DNA from: Ignavibacteria bacterium | GTDB lineage: Bacteria; Bacteroidota; Ignavibacteria; Tepidaquicellales; OLB5 | DNA: 64,000 nt | Assembly: GCA_030835085.1 (NCBI GenBank) | Contig: JAUQWQ010000158.1 | Location: 65,125 to 129,124 of the forward strand | Direction: 5' to 3' | Shown: positions 8,930-64,000 of the stretch, piece by piece | How positions within the stretch are numbered: position 1 is the stretch's first letter | How the letters are laid out: every line of letters starts with the position of its first letter | Made by a program: the position numbers and the translations under genes | The notes under the pieces: generated by a model | The model's input: only the letters and a program-made list of their open reading frames with translations | Told to the model about the DNA's origin: nothing | The model's database searches: none

Positions 8930-9825
8930 TGTCAAATAACCAACACAAAACTCTGCCTTTAAAAAAGAACTTTCTTGCAATTGAAAAGGAATTTTCATCT
9001 TATGATAACTCCAATGTAGTGATACTTTCTGCACCATATGAGAAAACCACATCATATGGTAAGGGTACCGCAAAAGGTCCCGGTGCGATACTTGAAGCAT
9101 CACACTACGTGGAATTTTTTGATGAGGAGACCGAAAAAGAGGTGTGTTTTGATATAGGCATTGCCGCTATAGAACCTATGAAATTCGGCAAACTAAGCGG
9201 AAAAAAGGCACTGGAGCTCATATACCACCATGTGAATAAACACATTAAGAACGGTAAATTTGTAATTACTCTTGGCGGCGAGCATTCCATAAGCACCGCG
9301 CCTATAAAAGCACATTTTGATAATTACCAGGAGTTGTCAATCCTCCATTTTGATGCGCATTCAGACTTACGCGAACAATACGAAGGCTCGAAGTACTCAC
9401 ATGCCTCATTTGCAGCCCGAGTCTCGGAATTCACAACCAATATTACACAGGTGGGTATTCGTGCACAGTGTAAAGAAGAATTTGAGTTCATTAAAGCAAA
9501 AGGCATAAACACATTTTACGCCTTCCAAATGCGAAATGAAGGGTTTGATCATAATCTTATTGAGAAAATCCTTGGGACACTTAAGAAAAATGTTTACATA
9601 ACATTTGATGTTGATTACTTTGATCCTTCAATAATGCCCTCAACCGGTACCCCCGAGCCCAACGGTTTTTATTGGGATGAGACAATGCGTCTGCTGAAGA
9701 AAGTCTGTGCTGAGAGAAATCTGGTAGGATTTGATGTAGTTGAATTAGCTCCCCAAAAGAATTATACATTCCCTGATTTCCTCACTGCAAAATTGATATA
9801 CAAGATATTAAATTATAAGTTTTAG
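8929..9825 (+). CDS. speB: Agmatinase / arginase-family ureohydrolase
   Basis: 'LGGEHSIS', 'LHFDAHSDLR', 'YITFDVDYFDPSIMPSTGTPEPNG', 'GFDVVELAP'; start overlaps dnaX stop. Confidence 0.92.
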   Translation: MSNNQHKTLPLKKNFLAIEKEFSSYDNSNVVILSAPYEKTTSYGKGTAKGPGAILEASHYVEFFDEETEKEVCFDIGIAAIEPMKFGKLSGKKALELIYHHVNKHIKNGKFVITLGGEHSISTAPIKAHFDNYQELSILHFDAHSDLREQYEGSKYSHASFAARVSEFTTNITQVGIRAQCKEEFEFIKAKGINTFYAFQMRNEGFDHNLIEKILGTLKKNVYITFDVDYFDPSIMPSTGTPEPNGFYWDETMRLLKKVCAERNLVGFDVVELAPQKNYTFPDFLTAKLIYKILNYKF

Positions 9826-9851
9826 AATTTATGTAAAACAGAGTTATAAAG

Positions 9852-9876
9852 AACAAGGGGCTTTGAGCCCCTTGTT
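9852..9876. terminator. Bidirectional hairpin terminator between convergent genes
   Basis: AACAAGGGGCT-TTG-AGCCCCTTGTT. Confidence 0.8.
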
Positions 9877-9909
9877 TTGCTGAAATACGTCCACTTCTTC
9901 AAACTTTCC

Positions 9910-11484
9910 TTACCAGCTATACCCATTTGATTTAAGCCACTCCTTAGCATCATTATCACCCAGTCTTGCAGCACTTTGGAAGCTCCCTGCTGCCTTTTCC
10001 TTGCTGCCTGAACCAACGAATGCTACACCCATATTATAGAACCCAAATGCAGAATTCGGATTTATCTCCACAGCCTTCTGGAAATCAATGATCGCTCGTG
10101 AGTAATCTTTCATTTCATTATAAATATATCCCCTGTTAACCAGCGCTTTTTCAAATGCGGGATTCAGCTCAATTGCTTTTGTGTATTCTTTTATAGCTGA
10201 CTTATACTCATTAATTTCAGTGTAAGCCCTCCCCCGCTGGTAATAAGCTTCCGCAGAAGATGGATCCAGTTCAACTGCCCTGTTAAATTGCTCCAGGGCT
10301 GCTGAAAAACTTTTATTATCATATTCAACGAGACCTTTATTAATAAAATCTTCCGCAGTTGGTTGATAGACCGGTTGTTTAATTTCTTCCGGTATCAGCT
10401 CTTCCTTTTTAATTTCCTGAACCGGCTCTTCTTTAATATCAACCGCAACAGTTTCTTCCGTTTTAGCCTCAGGCAGGGGTTCTTCAATTTTTGTTTCCGG
10501 TATGAACTCCTCTTTCTTTACTTGGGCAACCGGTTCTTCCGGCTGTACCTCTGTTATATTTACTTCACTCTTAACTTCAGTTGCCGTTTCTTCTGTTTTG
10601 AGCTCAGGAGTCTGTTCGTTTTTTGATACTTCCGGCATGGGTTCTTTTCGTATCTCTTTGCCGGGGACATCAAATTTAACATTTGCAATCGGCTCTTCAG
10701 TCTTTACTTCTGTTGCCTGCTCTTCCTTTTTAACTTCAATTATAGGTTCTTCTTTCTTAACTTCCGTTACCGGTGCTTCCGTCTTTACTTCGGTTACAGG
10801 TTCTTCCTTTTTGATTTCAGTTACAGGTACCTCAGTTACAGGTATTTCCGATTTAACTTCAGTAATTGGTTCTTCCTTCTTAACTTCTGTTACGGGTAAG
10901 TCAGATTTAATTTCAGTTACAGGTTCTTCTTTTTTGACTTCCTGTGATATTTCTAATTTGTTCTCACTTTTCAGCTTATCAAGTCTTTCAGTTGCATCGG
11001 CAAAATCGGGTTTTAGCTCAAGCGTCTTTTTATAATCATTTGCTGCATTAGTAAAATCATCTTTTGCCAGATAACCATTACCTCTCAGATAATAAGCTTC
11101 ATAGCCGGCAGGGTTCAGTTCAGTAACCTTTGTGAAATTCTCAATAGCCGCAGCATAATCTTTCAATTCATAATTCACCTGTCCAAGGTTCATATATGAG
11201 ACTTCACTTTTTGGATTAAGTTTAATAGTTTTTAAATAATCGTTTTTCGCCATGCCAAGATTATTCAGCTTCCTGTAAACATTCCCCCTTTTCAAATACG
11301 CGTCAGCATATTTTGCATCTACTCCTATTGCCAGAGTATAATATGTTATTGCCTCATCATAGCTGTTCGATTTCTCAGATTCCATGCCGGAATTGTAAAA
11401 CATAACCGCGTCTTTATCCTGAGAAAAAAGATAATTAAATGGAATAATACAAATAGCGAAAATAACCAGTATAGTCTTTTTCAT
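9910..11484 (-). CDS. TPR-repeat secreted protein with long EEPVTEVK-type repetitive linker
   Basis: TPR motifs at both ends ('AYYLRGNGYLAKDDFTNAANDYKKTLELKP', 'AEAYYQRGRAYTEINEYKSAIKEYTKAIELNP'); signal peptide; central low-complexity Lys/Glu/Pro/Val/Thr repeats. Confidence 0.85.
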   Translation of the reverse strand: MKKTILVIFAICIIPFNYLFSQDKDAVMFYNSGMESEKSNSYDEAITYYTLAIGVDAKYADAYLKRGNVYRKLNNLGMAKNDYLKTIKLNPKSEVSYMNLGQVNYELKDYAAAIENFTKVTELNPAGYEAYYLRGNGYLAKDDFTNAANDYKKTLELKPDFADATERLDKLKSENKLEISQEVKKEEPVTEIKSDLPVTEVKKEEPITEVKSEIPVTEVPVTEIKKEEPVTEVKTEAPVTEVKKEEPIIEVKKEEQATEVKTEEPIANVKFDVPGKEIRKEPMPEVSKNEQTPELKTEETATEVKSEVNITEVQPEEPVAQVKKEEFIPETKIEEPLPEAKTEETVAVDIKEEPVQEIKKEELIPEEIKQPVYQPTAEDFINKGLVEYDNKSFSAALEQFNRAVELDPSSAEAYYQRGRAYTEINEYKSAIKEYTKAIELNPAFEKALVNRGYIYNEMKDYSRAIIDFQKAVEINPNSAFGFYNMGVAFVGSGSKEKAAGSFQSAARLGDNDAKEWLKSNGYSW

Positions 11485-11881: not shown

Positions 11882-11970
11882 GAGTTTGTATTTGGCTCAA
11901 TAGACTGCAAATTTACAAATTATATTGATTTTAATAAAGGGTAAGATTTTTCCAAAATTCAGGGATAATA

Positions 11971-11995
11971 AGTGTCAGGTCAGAGACCTGACACT
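11971..11995. repeat. 11-bp perfect palindrome flanked by 10-bp direct repeat
   Basis: AGTGTCAGGTC-AGA-GACCTGACACT; flanking AGGGTAAGAT at 11938..11947 and 11998..12007. Confidence 0.7.
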
Positions 11996-12007
11996 ACAGG
12001 GTAAGAT

Positions 12008-13297
12008 CTACTTCTTAAAATCTACATACATATCCTCAAAATTGAGTATCATTTCCGAAAATTCGCCCATGTAATCCTGTCCAAGGTTGCCAAAATAGCC
12101 TTTATCGTGATCTTTAATATTCTCAGCTATAACCCGCACTTCGCTTAGCTTTAGTTTAGAGTTTCCGATCTTAAGCAGGAGTTCTTCGATCCTGAATCCC
12201 TTAACTTTTACTGTACCTCCGGCGCCGCCAAATTCAATATCCTCTGCTTCATATTTGCTTTCTATCTTCGCCTTGTTTCGCAGGTAATATGATGAGTAAA
12301 GCATGGTTGCCTTGGCGCCTGTATCAAAAGTAAATGCAAGTGAATCACTTCCGTCAATAACTTCAATCGAGGGAATGAATCCATCTATCAGCATGTTGAC
12401 AAGTGTTCCCGGTGTTTTTTGTTTGGGAATAAATATCTTTTCACTTCTAATATGAACTTCCTTCATTTCTTTTATCACCGGTAGTCCGATAATACCGTTT
12501 ATCACATATAGTCCGCCTGCAAAACTTAATGATTCATCCGGCATTACAAGGAACAGTACATTGCTTAATTTTACACTGCCAATTTCAAGCAGTTCCGCGT
12601 ACGCAAGCCGTGATTTTATCATTTTTCCGGTAACCGAACCCACCTCGATTTTTCCTTCAAGCATTTTTAGCTTCATCTTTTTCGCATAAGTATCGTTCAC
12701 CACCGAAAAATTCGCACCTGTATCAAAAATGAACTCCTCATTTACTCCCCCGCATTTAACGGGAATATTTATCAGCCCTGCCAGGTCTTTTTTAAAAGGG
12801 ATCTTTGAGTCCCCCTTAAATTCTGCACCCTGTTTTTGAATATTCTCAGCAGCCTTCCATATCACCATTGAATTCCTGGTATCAACATCTTCTGCGGAAT
12901 CAAGCAATGATGCGTAGTTCTGCAGTATATATTCCGTACAGAAAAGTGCATCTTTATAATCAAACATGTTGACTGAATTCTTTATTCTGGTTTCATAAAG
13001 CAGCAACTTCAGTGAATCCAAAATGCTCTCTGAATGTTTTTCAATCAGCTGGTTAATAACAGTATTTGATTCAGCATTTTTGTGTCTCAGATTCAGTATC
13101 AGAGCATTTAAATACAGTTTTTCCCACTCACTCAGCACCGGGTTATCATAATTATCAGCAAACCTGAACAGGTCCTTGTTCTCGTGCAGCATCAGTATTG
13201 TGTTGAACTCCCCGCCAGCAGAGTGTTTAGCTGAAAAAGCATTTTCGGAAAGAATGCTGCCCGTTAAAACTACCATCAATATAATTGTTAGTTTCAT
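12008..13297 (-). CDS. Secreted retropepsin-like aspartyl protease family protein (two DTGA motifs)
   Basis: 'EEFIFDTGANFSVVNDTYA' and 'LAFTFDTGAKATMLYSSYY'; ORF opens at 13396 but MKLTIILMVVLTGSILS at 13297 looks like the real signal peptide start. Confidence 0.8.
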   Translation of the reverse strand: MKLTIILMVVLTGSILSENAFSAKHSAGGEFNTILMLHENKDLFRFADNYDNPVLSEWEKLYLNALILNLRHKNAESNTVINQLIEKHSESILDSLKLLLYETRIKNSVNMFDYKDALFCTEYILQNYASLLDSAEDVDTRNSMVIWKAAENIQKQGAEFKGDSKIPFKKDLAGLINIPVKCGGVNEEFIFDTGANFSVVNDTYAKKMKLKMLEGKIEVGSVTGKMIKSRLAYAELLEIGSVKLSNVLFLVMPDESLSFAGGLYVINGIIGLPVIKEMKEVHIRSEKIFIPKQKTPGTLVNMLIDGFIPSIEVIDGSDSLAFTFDTGAKATMLYSSYYLRNKAKIESKYEAEDIEFGGAGGTVKVKGFRIEELLLKIGNSKLKLSEVRVIAENIKDHDKGYFGNLGQDYMGEFSEMILNFEDMYVDFKK

Positions 13298-13379
13298 AGT
13301 ATTATTATTTATATGTACAAAGTTAATTAATTGATAAGGGTAAGTATTGTAAAAAAACGACACTGCCTGAAAAAAACAT

Positions 13380-14192
13380 TCAGATAAGTTTTTCAAGATT
13401 AATTTTCTTCTGCCTGGTTACATACTTACAGGGAAGCATCCCTGTAAATTCTTTGAATTCGCGGTAATAATGCGACTGGTCGTAGTAGCCTGATTCAACC
13501 AGAACATCAAAATGACGAAAGTCGTTTTTCATCAGTTTCCTGGTTACGTTATGAAATCTCACAATTCTGCAGAATTCCTTCGGTGAAAGTCCTGTCCTCA
13601 TATGGAATTTTCGCTGGAACTGCCTGGGGCTGATATCCAGACACGGGTAAAAATCTTCAAGCTTGATATTACCTTTGCTCGATATCATTTTTCCTATCAT
13701 ATCAGAAATTTCATCTTCCGCAGGCGGGCATTTCGCTTCATACTTTGCTCTCAGGAATTCATTAATAATACTGATCCTATCCTTAATACTATTACTGTTT
13801 TTGGTTTCTGATCTTATTTTATTGAACAATGGAACTGGAAAAAGATCTCTCAGATTCACGCCCTTATTTATAGTCAATTCACAATCTATACCAAACAAGT
13901 GCTGTCCTGCAGCAGTAACAAATCTATATCCAATTACTGTGAGATGAGGAGATATTTTGAAAGGAACATTCTGCGTATTTGGGCCTGAAAGGAAAATTGC
14001 TGTATTTTTTAAATTGCGCGGGAAAATAAATATGAGGGTGGTTGTAAAATCAGTAGTTAAATGGAAGTGTTTATCATTACCTGAAATGGATGCTGTTCCA
14101 AAAATCCATATCTTATCAACAACATGCTTCAAATCAACGGGCGGCGTTAACTCTTTGTATCTATAGCTTGTTTTAGGATTGATATCTGTCAT
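13380..14192 (-). CDS. AraC-family transcriptional regulator
   Basis: C-terminal HTH 'ISPRQFQRKFHMRTGLSPKEFCRIVRFHNV...DVLVESGYYDQSHYYREFKEFTGMLP'. Confidence 0.87.
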   Translation of the reverse strand: MTDINPKTSYRYKELTPPVDLKHVVDKIWIFGTASISGNDKHFHLTTDFTTTLIFIFPRNLKNTAIFLSGPNTQNVPFKISPHLTVIGYRFVTAAGQHLFGIDCELTINKGVNLRDLFPVPLFNKIRSETKNSNSIKDRISIINEFLRAKYEAKCPPAEDEISDMIGKMISSKGNIKLEDFYPCLDISPRQFQRKFHMRTGLSPKEFCRIVRFHNVTRKLMKNDFRHFDVLVESGYYDQSHYYREFKEFTGMLPCKYVTRQKKINLEKLI

Positions 14193-14244
14193 TTGCCCAA
14201 ATTAGCAATAAGGGCAAACAAAAAAAATGTAAAGGTTATTACAG

Positions 14245-14511
14245 TTAATAATCCATGAACCGGAATCGTTTTTCAAGTAAAACAGGATCTGCAATTTCAG
14301 AAACAGGGTCATTATCCATTGCTGAATCAAAATTATGTATCATTTTCTCCATATGTAAGCTGTTATCCCTTGGTCTGCGAATCTTACTGATCTCTTTTTC
14401 AAGAGCATTTAATCTGTTTTCAAGTTCTTCAAGAAAAGATATTTCTTCCATTTTCGTAAAAGTATTATTTTTGAATAACATTAATTTTAAATTTCCGGGT
14501 AATAATATCAA
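14245..14511 (-). CDS. Small hypothetical protein with short coiled-coil stretch
   Basis: 88-aa ORF 'EEISFLEELENRLNALEKEISKIRRP' in the gap between two genes. Confidence 0.45.
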   Translation of the reverse strand: MILLPGNLKLMLFKNNTFTKMEEISFLEELENRLNALEKEISKIRRPRDNSLHMEKMIHNFDSAMDNDPVSEIADPVLLEKRFRFMDY

Positions 14512-59584: not shown

Positions 59585-59793
59585 GCTTTATTTGGTGTTT
59601 AAATTATAATTTTTCAAAATTTACTCAATGCGCAAGTTTTTTTCAATGTATCAAAAATTAACCTGAGAGTATTTAGAAACATATAGGGTAATATAGATAT
59701 ATATTGAAGTTAATTTTACCGGAAATTTGCCTGATTATTAAGCCATTTTACTCTTATACTTGCATTAATAATTTAAATATTAAGGAGTTTTAT

Positions 59794-60498
59794 ATGGATC
59801 TTAAAAACGCAAAAGTGCTTGTCACAGGTGGAAGTATGGGAATAGGCTATGCAGCTGCAAAAACATTGATTGATGCCGGCGCGAAAGTTGTAATTTGCGG
59901 CAGAGATACAAAAAGACTGGAAGCCTCAGCTAAAGAACTTGGAGCAATTCCGGTTTTAGCCGACGTTGCAATAGAAAGCGATGTAATTTCGCTTATAGCA
60001 AAAACCATTGAAGCGATGGATGGATACAATGTGCTGATAAATAACGCAGCTTACGGATATTTCAGCCCGCTAACAGGTATTGATACAGCAAAGTTTAACG
60101 ATGTATTAATGACAAATATTACAGGTGCTATGATGTGCGGAAGAGAATCAGCCAAATATTTCACAGAAAAAAGCTATGGCAATATAGTAAATATCGCATC
60201 AAGTGCAGGTACGGGCGGATTCGCAAACGGCTCACCTTACTGCGCAACTAAATTCGCTCTAAGGGGCATGAACGAATGCTGGCGCGCGGAACTAAGAAAA
60301 CATAACATAAGGGTGATGCTGGTTAATCCAAGTGAAGTACAGACTAACTTCGGCATAAATGCCGGCGGCAAGCCTCGTGATTTCAATCCGACCAAGCTCG
60401 AAGGCGCACAGATCGCGCATTTAATTAAATCTATGCTTGAAATGGATGATAAGGGTTTTATTCCCGAAGCCGGTGTTTGGGCAACAAACCCGCAATAG
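59794..60498 (+). CDS. Short-chain dehydrogenase/reductase
   Basis: 'VLVTGGSMGIGYAAAKTLIDAGAKV', 'LINNAAYG', 'SPYCATKFALRG'. ORF opens at 59704, but MDLKNAKV at 59794 follows AAGGAG. Confidence 0.9.
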   Translation: MDLKNAKVLVTGGSMGIGYAAAKTLIDAGAKVVICGRDTKRLEASAKELGAIPVLADVAIESDVISLIAKTIEAMDGYNVLINNAAYGYFSPLTGIDTAKFNDVLMTNITGAMMCGRESAKYFTEKSYGNIVNIASSAGTGGFANGSPYCATKFALRGMNECWRAELRKHNIRVMLVNPSEVQTNFGINAGGKPRDFNPTKLEGAQIAHLIKSMLEMDDKGFIPEAGVWATNPQ

Positions 60499-60560: not shown

Positions 60561-62033
60561 CTATTTTCCTAAACATGATGTAACTTTAGATAACAACCAA
60601 TCTTTATAAGAGATTTGATTTTCTGATTCAATTCTACGTCTCAAATATTCAATTTCATTTTTATTATTTTCAATTTTTAAGATTATGAATTTCTCGAAAT
60701 ATTTTAAATAATTACCGATACGGATTTTCCTATGTTCTGATACCAGGGTATTGTTCCTTAAAAATTCCTTAAAACTTTTAATTTCACAAATAGCTTCTTC
60801 ATAGTAATTTAGTTCATAATACATTTTTATAACTATATTTTTAATATCGTATTTATATACAAAATTATTCATGATGATCTTATTGTAATGATGAAGCGCT
60901 TTCGGGTAGTTACCAGTGTGACTATAGAAGTATGTATAGCTAAAATTCAGTAAATTTTCCTTGTTTGTTGGATTTACATCTTTAATATGTTTATTAATAA
61001 AATTTAGAGTCCAGTCATATTCTTTCAGAAAAAGGCCGTGAATCATTATATCTCTATACAAATCATCCGACAAGTATTTATTTTTTCTGTCTTTATAATA
61101 TTTATTGTTCAATAAAACAGTGTATAGTCTGAACAACTCATAATTAATACTTTTGGGAGTGTTAGCCGACCTTTTTCTTAAGATACAATAATTGATCATC
61201 CAGTTATAATGGAATGCTATTTCATCTGGACTAAATGATTTTACATTTTTCTCAAAAAATTCCTTATATCGGAAATAATAATCTTCTTTTTCTAAAAAAT
61301 TAAATGTTTGAATAAGAAATTTGTATAAGGTGATAATTATTGACCCATGTTCGCTTTTATAAACTTTCAATAAATTATCAAGATCCAGGTTTTTAATTAA
61401 GGTATTAATAGGGTTGAATGAACTGGTTATATTATATTTTTCAGCAAAAATTCTGGAATTGAGATATAGGGAAATTATTTCAGAAATATAGAAATTTAAT
61501 AGATCAAAACTAATTGATTTTATTTGATTTAATCTATCAATCGCATCTTTAGAATGTAAAATATTCTTTTGTTTATGTGCAAAATTAAAGAGTAACGTAT
61601 TATGCCAATACTTATTATAAAGGTTTCTTGCATCTATAGTTGAATCTGTTATTAAATTCTTTCTTACTCTATTACGGATTAATTTATCTGACTTTCGATG
61701 GAGCAAATCATCTAAAAGAAAATTTTCTACTTCAAACTCATTTTTTTCAAAATTACTAATTGATAGAAACCTTAATGCTAATTTTAGCAGTTCAGAAAGA
61801 GCATCTCTAAAAGTAGAATCATTATACCTACCACTTTGAGTGCTTCTGGTTGCTATAATTTTTTTATTGAAATCCTTATGGTCAAATTCAGGATAATAAG
61901 CAACAATTTCGCTAAAAAGTTTCAGCATTTTTTCGCTGTTATTAAAATAGGGAGATTTAAGAAATCGTTCAAATTTCTTTATTTCATCATTTGAAAATGA
62001 TTTGAATAAGTCAATAAGGTTGTGGTTCAGCAT
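60561..62033 (-). CDS. Hypothetical ~490-aa helical (TPR-like) protein next to RiPP locus
   Basis: Long intact ORF; 'NLLNFSYTYFYSHTGNYPKALHHYNKIIMNN' TPR-like helices; no catalytic motif seen. Confidence 0.6.
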   Translation of the reverse strand: MLNHNLIDLFKSFSNDEIKKFERFLKSPYFNNSEKMLKLFSEIVAYYPEFDHKDFNKKIIATRSTQSGRYNDSTFRDALSELLKLALRFLSISNFEKNEFEVENFLLDDLLHRKSDKLIRNRVRKNLITDSTIDARNLYNKYWHNTLLFNFAHKQKNILHSKDAIDRLNQIKSISFDLLNFYISEIISLYLNSRIFAEKYNITSSFNPINTLIKNLDLDNLLKVYKSEHGSIIITLYKFLIQTFNFLEKEDYYFRYKEFFEKNVKSFSPDEIAFHYNWMINYCILRKRSANTPKSINYELFRLYTVLLNNKYYKDRKNKYLSDDLYRDIMIHGLFLKEYDWTLNFINKHIKDVNPTNKENLLNFSYTYFYSHTGNYPKALHHYNKIIMNNFVYKYDIKNIVIKMYYELNYYEEAICEIKSFKEFLRNNTLVSEHRKIRIGNYLKYFEKFIILKIENNKNEIEYLRRRIESENQISYKDWLLSKVTSCLGK

Positions 62034-62232: not shown

Positions 62233-62442
62233 ATGAAAAGAATACTAATTTATTCATTTGTAGCTGCTATTTTCTTTTTGATCAGCCCTTTTGGAGTATT
62301 TTCAAATACTCAATTAAAATCACAATATTCTTCAACTTTTTCAACTGATTATACAGTACGAGTTAATATCGATGGGAAATGGTATTTAGTAACGTATAAC
62401 AGTGATGGTTACATCATAAACATGATAGAAGATGACGAATAA
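62233..62442 (+). CDS. Small secreted peptide (69 aa) upstream of the RiPP precursors
   Basis: AAGGAG RBS upstream; N-terminal signal peptide MKRILIYSFVAAIFFLISPFGVFS; mature part 'TVRVNIDGKWYLVTYNSDGYIINMIEDDE'. Confidence 0.6.
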   Translation: MKRILIYSFVAAIFFLISPFGVFSNTQLKSQYSSTFSTDYTVRVNIDGKWYLVTYNSDGYIINMIEDDE

Positions 62443-62504
62443 TATCATATCTGCAGATATGCAAACAAATTAATTCATAAACTAAACAAACAAGGAGCAG
62501 AGTT

Positions 62505-62699
62505 ATGCCAAAAAAACTGAAATTAAAACTCGAGGACCTGAAAATCCAAAGTTTTGTTACTCTTTTAACAGAAGACGAAAAAAAGAAATTTAAAGGCGGG
62601 GGTTCTGTGGATTGCGACTCAACTCACTATCCATGTTGCCATACTACTTTTGAACCAACTTGTCGGCCATCATATTGTTCAGGGGAAGTTTGTTGTTAA
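62505..62699 (+). CDS. RiPP precursor peptide, lanthipeptide/pinensin-like leader, 7-Cys core
   Basis: 'MPKKLKLKLEDLKIQSFVTLLTEDEKKKFKGGG|SVDCDSTHYPCCHTTFEPTCRPSYCSGEVCC'; AAGGAG RBS. Confidence 0.82.
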   Translation: MPKKLKLKLEDLKIQSFVTLLTEDEKKKFKGGGSVDCDSTHYPCCHTTFEPTCRPSYCSGEVCC

Positions 62700-62708
62700 A
62701 ATTACAAA

Positions 62709-62744
62709 GAATGTACCTTGAATTGCAGAATTCAGGGTACATTC
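62709..62744. terminator. Hairpin after precursor 1
   Basis: GAATGTACCTTGAATT-GCAG-AATTCAGGGTACATTC, one mismatch in a 16-bp stem, followed by AATTTT. Confidence 0.75.
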
Positions 62745-62782
62745 AATTTTAATTCAAATAGTATTCTAAAAGGAACTTAGTT

Positions 62783-62980
62783 ATGCCAAAAAAACTGAAA
62801 CTAAAACTCGAGGATCTGAAGATCCAAAGTTTTGTAACTCTTTTAACAGAAGACGAAAAAAAGCAATTTAAAGGCGGTGGTACTGTGGATTGTGCTCCAA
62901 CATACCAACTACCTTGTCACTCAGCAACATGTCAAATGACATGTCCAAATTCTTATTGTTCAGGTTTTGAATGCTGTTGA
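62783..62980 (+). CDS. RiPP precursor peptide, tandem paralog with divergent 7-Cys core
   Basis: 'MPKKLKLKLEDLKIQSFVTLLTEDEKKQFKGGG|TVDCAPTYQLPCHSATCQMTCPNSYCSGFECC'. Confidence 0.82.
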   Translation: MPKKLKLKLEDLKIQSFVTLLTEDEKKQFKGGGTVDCAPTYQLPCHSATCQMTCPNSYCSGFECC

Positions 62981-62992
62981 TTAATAATTTAA

Positions 62993-63019
62993 TCCCTTGA
63001 ATTGCAGAAATTCAAGGGA
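62993..63019. terminator. Hairpin after precursor 2
   Basis: TCCCTTGAATT-GCAGA-AATTCAAGGGA, perfect 11-bp stem. Confidence 0.7.
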
Positions 63020-63080
63020 CTAAAATTAAAATGCCATCCAAGCAAATAATTATGGATATTAAATTTAATAAAATCAAATT

Positions 63081-64000
63081 TCACACTAAGTAACAAGAAC
63101 CTGCTAATTCCTTTATTTGAATTAATAATATTTTTTCTGCTTCCTCTTTTTCCTTTATTGAATTTACATCAAAACAAATTAACAATTCTTTTATTACTTT
63201 ATTAACTGTTTTTTCTGTCTGAAAACTATTCAATATTATATTTACAAGTTGGGATATTTTTTTTATGATTGTCTTATTAGCATTTTGTTTCAATACAAAA
63301 TAAATTTCTCCGGCAGGGGTATTCATCATGTTAAATAATGTTTCGTTATTATTGCTCCAATCCCACTTTGAATTAAGTATATAAATAGAATTATTTAACT
63401 TCAAACTTTGCTTTAAAAATACAGGATCATCAAATTTTAAAAACTTTTTGGCATTTTCGTTTTCAATGATCCTTTTTATATCAAGATATGCAAAACTCAT
63501 TATAGAATGATCAAACTGAATATACTTTGTTTCATATTTAAACAGATCCGATAATCTTTCCGAAATATCCTTATTTTGAATACACTTCTTATATTTTGAA
63601 TAAAAAACGTTAAAGTTTTTTGTATAATCGGGACTTACTCCAAATTCATCAAATTTAATCGGTTTTTGGAATGTTTGGAATAGATAGGAAATTGTTTTTG
63701 GATAAAGTTTTTTGTAAAGTATTTCAGAAATTTCATTAATATTAATGTTTATATGTTTATATTTTTTTGAAAGAGTTTCACGTTTTGTTTTACTATCCAG
63801 CTTTGGCATTAACATTGAAGAAATTTTTTTTGGGGAAAGCAGCCTTGTAAAAAAATGACCAATTCCGCTCATTCCCATTAGCATACTTTTATCATCCACA
63901 TTCTGATCGATGAACACCCCATACCCTGATTTATAATATCCTATTTGTTGCTTCTGAATTAACACCTTTTCACCAACAATTTCTGCATACTTTAAATATT
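63081..64000 (-). CDS. 3' part of a probable LanC/LanM-type cyclase with C-terminal extension; 5' end beyond window
   Basis: Frame open to window edge (...YLKYAEIVGEKVLIQKQQIGYYKSGYGVFIDQNVDDKSMLMGMSGIGHFFTRLLSPKKISSMLMPKL...); 'G(M/L)SGIGHFFTRLLSPKKISSML' resembles the C-terminal LanC-fold signature. The listed start at 63965 is only an internal GTG. Confidence 0.6.
   Translation of the reverse strand, partial: YLKYAEIVGEKVLIQKQQIGYYKSGYGVFIDQNVDDKSMLMGMSGIGHFFTRLLSPKKISSMLMPKLDSKTKRETLSKKYKHINININEISEILYKKLYPKTISYLFQTFQKPIKFDEFGVSPDYTKNFNVFYSKYKKCIQNKDISERLSDLFKYETKYIQFDHSIMSFAYLDIKRIIENENAKKFLKFDDPVFLKQSLKLNNSIYILNSKWDWSNNNETLFNMMNTPAGEIYFVLKQNANKTIIKKISQLVNIILNSFQTEKTVNKVIKELLICFDVNSIKEKEEAEKILLIQIKELAGSCYLV

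Follow-up and report, generated by a model that had tools for sequence, protein, structure and literature searches.

At the right-hand end of a 64,000-nucleotide stretch of DNA (the window, bases 65125-129124 of a 139-kb contig) lie two small tandem genes with almost the same leader. The question that this locus raises is whether they are the precursors of a lanthipeptide and, if so, which enzymes would modify the peptides and by which route the product would leave a cell with two membranes. The initial annotation had placed the modification enzymes and the exporter beyond base 64000. When the contig was followed past this point, a LanC, an elimination protein, a LanB, and a C39 peptidase/ABC exporter were all found within 9 kb of the window edge, which is the opposite of finding about 15 kb with no such genes next to an open reading frame that is not LanC-like.

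Precursor peptides

The features at the precursor end of the locus are the following.

62233..62442, + strand, 69-aa ORF immediately before A1; its start is signal-peptide-like and its ribosome-binding site is good
62505..62699, + strand, precursor A1, 64 aa (NF038180, E 5.6e-9), leader MPKKLKLKLEDLKIQSFVTLLTEDEKKKFKGGG, core SVDCDSTHYPCCHTTFEPTCRPSYCSGEVCC
62709..62744, + strand, terminator-like hairpin after A1, 16 pairs and then T-rich, from a hairpin search
62783..62980, + strand, precursor A2, 65 aa (NF038180, E 3.6e-9), A1-type leader, core TVDCAPTYQLPCHSATCQMTCPNSYCSGFECC
62988..63024, - strand, terminator-like hairpin separating A2 from the convergent LanC gene, with a sequence related to that of the hairpin after A1

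A1 and A2 had been described as two tandem ORFs of 64-65 aa with a shared leader, and their positions and the near-identity of the leaders were confirmed; each stands behind a ribosome-binding site (AAGGAG/AAGGAA). The two 33-aa leaders differ in one residue, and 93 of their 99 nucleotides are identical with five of the six changes being silent, whereas the cores, which are the divergent Cys/Ser/Thr-rich C-termini noticed earlier, are identical in 59 of 99 nucleotides. There are 7 Cys and 7-8 Ser/Thr in each core and, since seven is an odd number, at least one Cys in each must lie outside any simple ring. Three terminator-like hairpins were found in the region when 0.3 were expected from shuffles. 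Near-identical leaders, diverged cores, and a related hairpin behind each gene are what is expected when a gene is duplicated in tandem and the recognition part is kept while the product diversifies. The proposal that the leader is of the pinensin type was borne out, as both peptides were matched by the NCBIfam model NF038180 (leader_pinensin) with 35.8 bits for A1 and 36.4 bits for A2 (cut-off 24). These two are the only NF038180-type leaders in the genome, and pinensin-type leaders were found in 4 of the 396 genomes of the phylum sample. In both peptides KGGG stands directly before the core, and the C39-type peptidase/exporter that had been predicted from this Gly-Gly is indeed encoded in the extended region. 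The 69-aa ORF before A1 has no relative in the related clusters; it may encode an immunity peptide or have nothing to do with the cluster.

Modification and export genes

In the list below, extended coordinates are the window numbering continued past 64000 (L003 + 59875).

63081-65078 (63081..64000 inside the window), - strand, LanC gene, 665 aa (LANC_like match)
65111-66142, extended coordinates, - strand, elimination protein, 343 aa (Lant_dehydr_C 2.3e-38)
66124-68997, extended coordinates, - strand, LanB (LanB N-terminal match 6.1e-19)
68997-69527, extended coordinates, - strand, reduced adaptor of the HlyD type, 176 aa (anchor motif and beta-barrel similarity)
69517-71697, extended coordinates, - strand, C39 peptidase/ABC exporter (Peptidase_C39 2.1e-30, ABC_tran 6e-32)

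The enzymes and the exporter are grouped in one operon which is convergent to the precursors, so that A1 and A2 face the LanC end, and the reading frames are intact throughout the cluster. The same gene order, with a pinensin-type precursor at the LanC end, was found in L013 from the same order, in L014 from the same genus, and in L043 from the Bacteroidia sample. Since the gene set and the gene order are common to related genomes, we consider it very probable that this is a pinensin-type class I lanthipeptide cluster with its full set of genes, carried on a genomic segment that is bounded by a repeat. The dehydratase and the exporter that had been placed past 64000 are thus there, the dehydratase in split form, but the second cyclase expected with them is not. 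The LanB, which matches the solved lantibiotic dehydratase 6ec7 and for which a back-translation scan returned one named relative only, has no elimination domain of its own, and this domain is supplied as the stand-alone Lant_dehydr_C protein.

When the LanC was examined, residues 50-424 matched Pfam LANC_like at 2.3e-51, the best match among solved structures was LicM2, and the LanM model TIGR03897 gave 248 bits, which is below the cut-off of that whole-LanM model. The protein is therefore similar to the cyclase half of LanM, the class II enzyme. It is not a one-protein dehydratase and cyclase of class II, because residues 6-415 correspond to the C-terminal half of LanM only and dehydration would be carried out by the split LanB. 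The zinc-site residues H209, C290-H291, and C339-H340 (motifs WCHG and CHG) are invariant in an alignment of six LanC. The convergent ORF had been read as the end of a LanC fold; it does belong to a LanC, but only about 65 aa of the part inside the window lie in the fold and the remaining ~240 aa are an extension.

The C-terminal extension of the LanC

This extension (residues 425-665, ~240 aa) is common to ten related LanC, whose sources are Bacteroidia and the class to which the window belongs. It is missing from two shorter LanC (L046 and L047) that have no pinensin-type leader nearby. When it was searched against PDB and Pfam, with single sequences and with profiles, nothing credible was returned. 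A plasmid search gave LanM and short LanC relatives only, none of them spanning the extension, and for the middle part (residues ~425-580) no known counterpart emerged. When the 253-aa extension was modelled whole with AlphaFold, the pLDDT was 40 and the model was set aside as unusable. The last part, however, gave a signal.

63084..63338, - strand, PqqD/RRE-like domain, the C-terminal 85 aa of LanC (residues 581-665) (hhalign, AlphaFold model)

When the tail was aligned by hhalign to a PqqD profile, for which 22 sequences from related genomes were used, the score was 30.0 with a probability of 72%, while 200 column shuffles reached at most 15.0 and the reversed alignment 9.7. Other stretches of the LanC scored no more than 16.4 against the same profile, except for one window overlapping most of the tail (26.4), and residues 257-340 of LanB gave a weaker PqqD/RRE signal. 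A PqqD-like winged helix has three strands and three helices; the AlphaFold model of the tail, made from two input sequences only and weak (pLDDT 65), has two short strands followed by three helices. Foldseek with this model returned no significant match (best E 1.3), with the leader-bound RRE of TbiB1 (5v1u) ranking second. The tail thus matches PqqD/RRE profiles far above the shuffled and internal controls, and it is probably a RiPP recognition element with which the cyclase itself would bind the leader. In a limited literature check, the parts of two RRE surveys that were consulted make no mention of an RRE on a LanC cyclase.

The export adaptor

The N-terminus of the 176-aa adaptor carries the membrane anchor motif IIRWG, as do the 335-aa adaptor of L013 and the 444-aa adaptor of L006. 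When its second part was compared with the beta-barrel of the L006 adaptor the score was 64 against a maximum of 58 in 500 shuffles, whereas against the beta part of the L013 adaptor the score was not above shuffles. The anchor and the beta-barrel are therefore recognisable, and what is missing are the hairpin and lipoyl parts which reach towards the outer-membrane channel TolC. Across the related clusters the size of the adaptor falls from 444 aa (L006) to 335 aa (L013) and 176 aa (here) and then to 0 aa (L014 and L043), with no adaptor gene between the exporter and LanB in the last two. From this domain content we infer that the reduced adaptor would release the product into the periplasm and not through TolC.

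The genomic segment and its borders

The cluster lies in a segment of the genome with the following features.

60477..60491, + strand, 15-bp direct repeat TTGGGCAACAAACCC, left copy, within the SDR gene 59704-60498 at its 3' end; it forms the left border of the segment missing from G005
60561..62033, - strand, 490-aa gene inside the repeat-bounded segment, a member of a ~480-aa family, with nothing that ties it to the function of the cluster
72071-72085, extended coordinates, 15-bp direct repeat TTGGGCAACAAACCC, right copy

The 15-bp repeat occurs at both junctions and nowhere else in the genome, and its 14-bp core is present exactly twice here and once in each of five relatives. In G005, a genome of the same genus, the SDR gene (93% aa identity) and a 475-aa gene (75%) are 31 bp apart. 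Here, the same two genes are separated by ~11.6 kb that holds the cluster, and this segment is absent from G005. The GC content is 30% in the segment compared to 37% in the window, and seemingly the cluster genes were inserted as one block. The LanC of two other cluster-bearing genomes in the genus are only 33-39% identical to the one here, which makes it unlikely that the clusters go back to one vertical inheritance. Either this genome may have gained the segment or G005 may have lost it. The region after the SDR gene differs in every relative that was examined, and sequence may often be gained and lost at this place. A reading of the SDR 3' end as a proven integration site was dropped, as the flanks differ between relatives, the order of events could not be fixed, and no integrase was seen.

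The ~480-aa family, which has the motif SPYFN and no Pfam or NCBIfam match, has members at 60561-62033 and at 72126-73553 (extended coordinates). It has 55 copies here, and the 12 other genomes of the genus that were searched have 10-48 each. With 55 copies in the genome, an insertion driven by duplication through two homologous flanking genes was also dropped. This genome also encodes C-termini of the NYPNPFNPS type, which we take to be those of Type IX secretion; together with the way the phylum sample is grouped, they point to an Ignavibacteria-like member of the Bacteroidota group.

Related loci

L006 (Bacteroidetes MAG RYN_274) has the same genes as the cluster described here, including a 672-aa LanC with the extension and pinensin-type precursors, and its LanB is 36% identical. 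It differs in that it has four precursors, placed between the elimination protein and LanC, and a full-size 444-aa HlyD adaptor. The most unusual observation of this analysis is found in L013, where HINT domains are fused to the precursors.

G025:C3:98500-117500, 11905-12669, 12719-13489, and 13539-14264, - strand, three tandem HINT-bearing precursors of 241-256 aa

One reading frame in each of these encodes a leader of the pinensin type (NF038180, E about 1e-10), then a Cys-rich core and, fused to it, a PT-HINT domain (E 7.7e-17 to 9.8e-21). The HINT domain, which is intein-like, has the first Cys, the TxxH, and the C-terminal HN, but it has Lys at +1, and a conserved tail follows. These are the only PT-HINT domains that were found in that genome, and no pinensin-leader precursor bearing HINT was found in other genomes among the 44 of the order that were searched. 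In the searchable open literature we found no published precedent for a lanthipeptide joined to a Hint domain. It is conceivable that these precursors cleave themselves to give a C-terminal thioester of the lanthipeptide.

The LanC of L043 (G835:C1:162500-181500, 9514-11388) lacks the zinc-site residues, having WAHG for WCHG and VSG for CHG, and the sole precursor of this locus has two Cys. Possibly the peptide made here is dehydrated but has few rings or none, and the cyclase is kept for another role. In L016 (G069:C12) and L044 (G457:C34) the leaders have no Gly-Gly, the ABC exporter is shorter than the C39 type, and the adaptor is full-size; a subtilisin-like protease is present in L016. 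By their gene content these two are a second export and processing variant with the same LanC family.

Proposed pathway and alternative explanations

By analogy with characterised enzymes we infer that the LanB would glutamylate Ser/Thr of both core peptides, and that the separate elimination protein would remove the glutamate to leave dehydroamino acids. The zinc-dependent LanC is predicted to add Cys thiols to these to form (methyl)lanthionine rings. The C39/ABC protein would then cut off the leader behind its final Gly-Gly and export the peptide, and with the reduced adaptor the product would be delivered to the periplasm. If the tail of LanC is an RRE, then LanC and LanB could each hold the leader. 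What we tentatively propose is that in this group of clusters steering by an RRE is not confined to the dehydratase but extends to the cyclase, which has one of its own fused to it, and that the exporter here works without an adaptor reaching the outer membrane and delivers a lanthipeptide to the periplasm; taken as a whole this is possible but doubtful.

The extension of LanC could instead be a structural domain or one that makes contact with another protein, for example LanB or the exporter. The lack of any Pfam or PDB sequence match and the weakness of the structure model would agree with this. We find it rather unlikely, as the PqqD/RRE score is about twice that of the controls apart from the tail-overlapping stretch, it is confined to the last ~85 residues, and the extension is absent from two LanC, those of L046 and L047, that are without pinensin-type leaders nearby. 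The cutting down of the adaptor to 176 aa leads to another question, namely whether the cluster is decaying or silent, having lost a working export adaptor and with it a secreted product, and the presence or absence of the whole segment within the genus could be read in the same way. This is very unlikely considering that every reading frame is intact and that the leaders have stayed nearly the same while the cores diverged; moreover, loss of the adaptor appears to be tolerated because the related clusters L014 and L043 are intact without one.

The stand-alone Lant_dehydr_C protein might also be a thiopeptide-type [4+2] cycloaddition enzyme, in which case the product would be a pyridine-containing macrocycle. 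Its family is named thiopep_ocin in NCBIfam, it has a weak match to the TbtD/PbtD pyridine synthases, and extra elimination-like proteins could, according to PMC7268733, carry out other chemistry. This match, however, is 31 bits where the cut-off is 325, the elimination domain is needed here because the LanB is without its own, there is a LanC whose zinc site is intact, and the operon showed no YcaO-type gene. Cycloaddition is thus the least probable of these explanations and we regard it as highly improbable.

The locus is a further intact pinensin-type cluster, in a lineage where few have been known so far. The 240 residues by which these class I cyclases exceed the usual length would have a testable explanation in the fused leader-binding domain. 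If the cyclase has an RRE of its own, this would matter for how LanC finds its substrate, and such an enzyme would be of use when enzymes are to be combined. The stepwise loss of the adaptor across the related clusters likewise makes the route by which the peptide exits testable.

Comparison with known systems

The split of the LanB is like that of thiopeptide systems of the TbtB/TbtC type, in which glutamylation and elimination are also on separate polypeptides. Those systems differ in having a YcaO cyclodehydratase and a pyridine synthase, neither of which is found here, whereas a LanC is present here. Among the Bacteroidetes, LxLxKx5L leaders that end in Gly-Gly and occur with C39 peptidases have been described, as has the resemblance of the pinensin-family LanC to the LanC part of LanM (Walker 2020, PMC7268733). 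The class I family I_17 in the same source shares with this cluster the LxLxKx5L leader ending in GG, the C39 peptidase, and the LanM-related LanC; the RRE-like tail of LanC is not mentioned in what that source says of the family. Another comparison is with the pinensin cluster of Chitinophaga pinensis (pinA-C, pinB1/pinB2, pinT), where the dehydratase is split into pinB1 and pinB2 (Mohr 2015, described in PMC10112250). Homologues of its perception and import genes (Cpin5321-5324) were not recognised within the segment or next to the cluster, as judged without the Cpin sequences. The two clusters have in common the leader family, the split dehydratase, the separate LanC, and the ABC transporter, and they differ in the core sequences and in the adaptor, which is tiny here. 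The type of cluster is thus already known, and what this locus adds to it is a cyclase with a probable RRE, an adaptor of reduced size, and a segment bounded by repeats.
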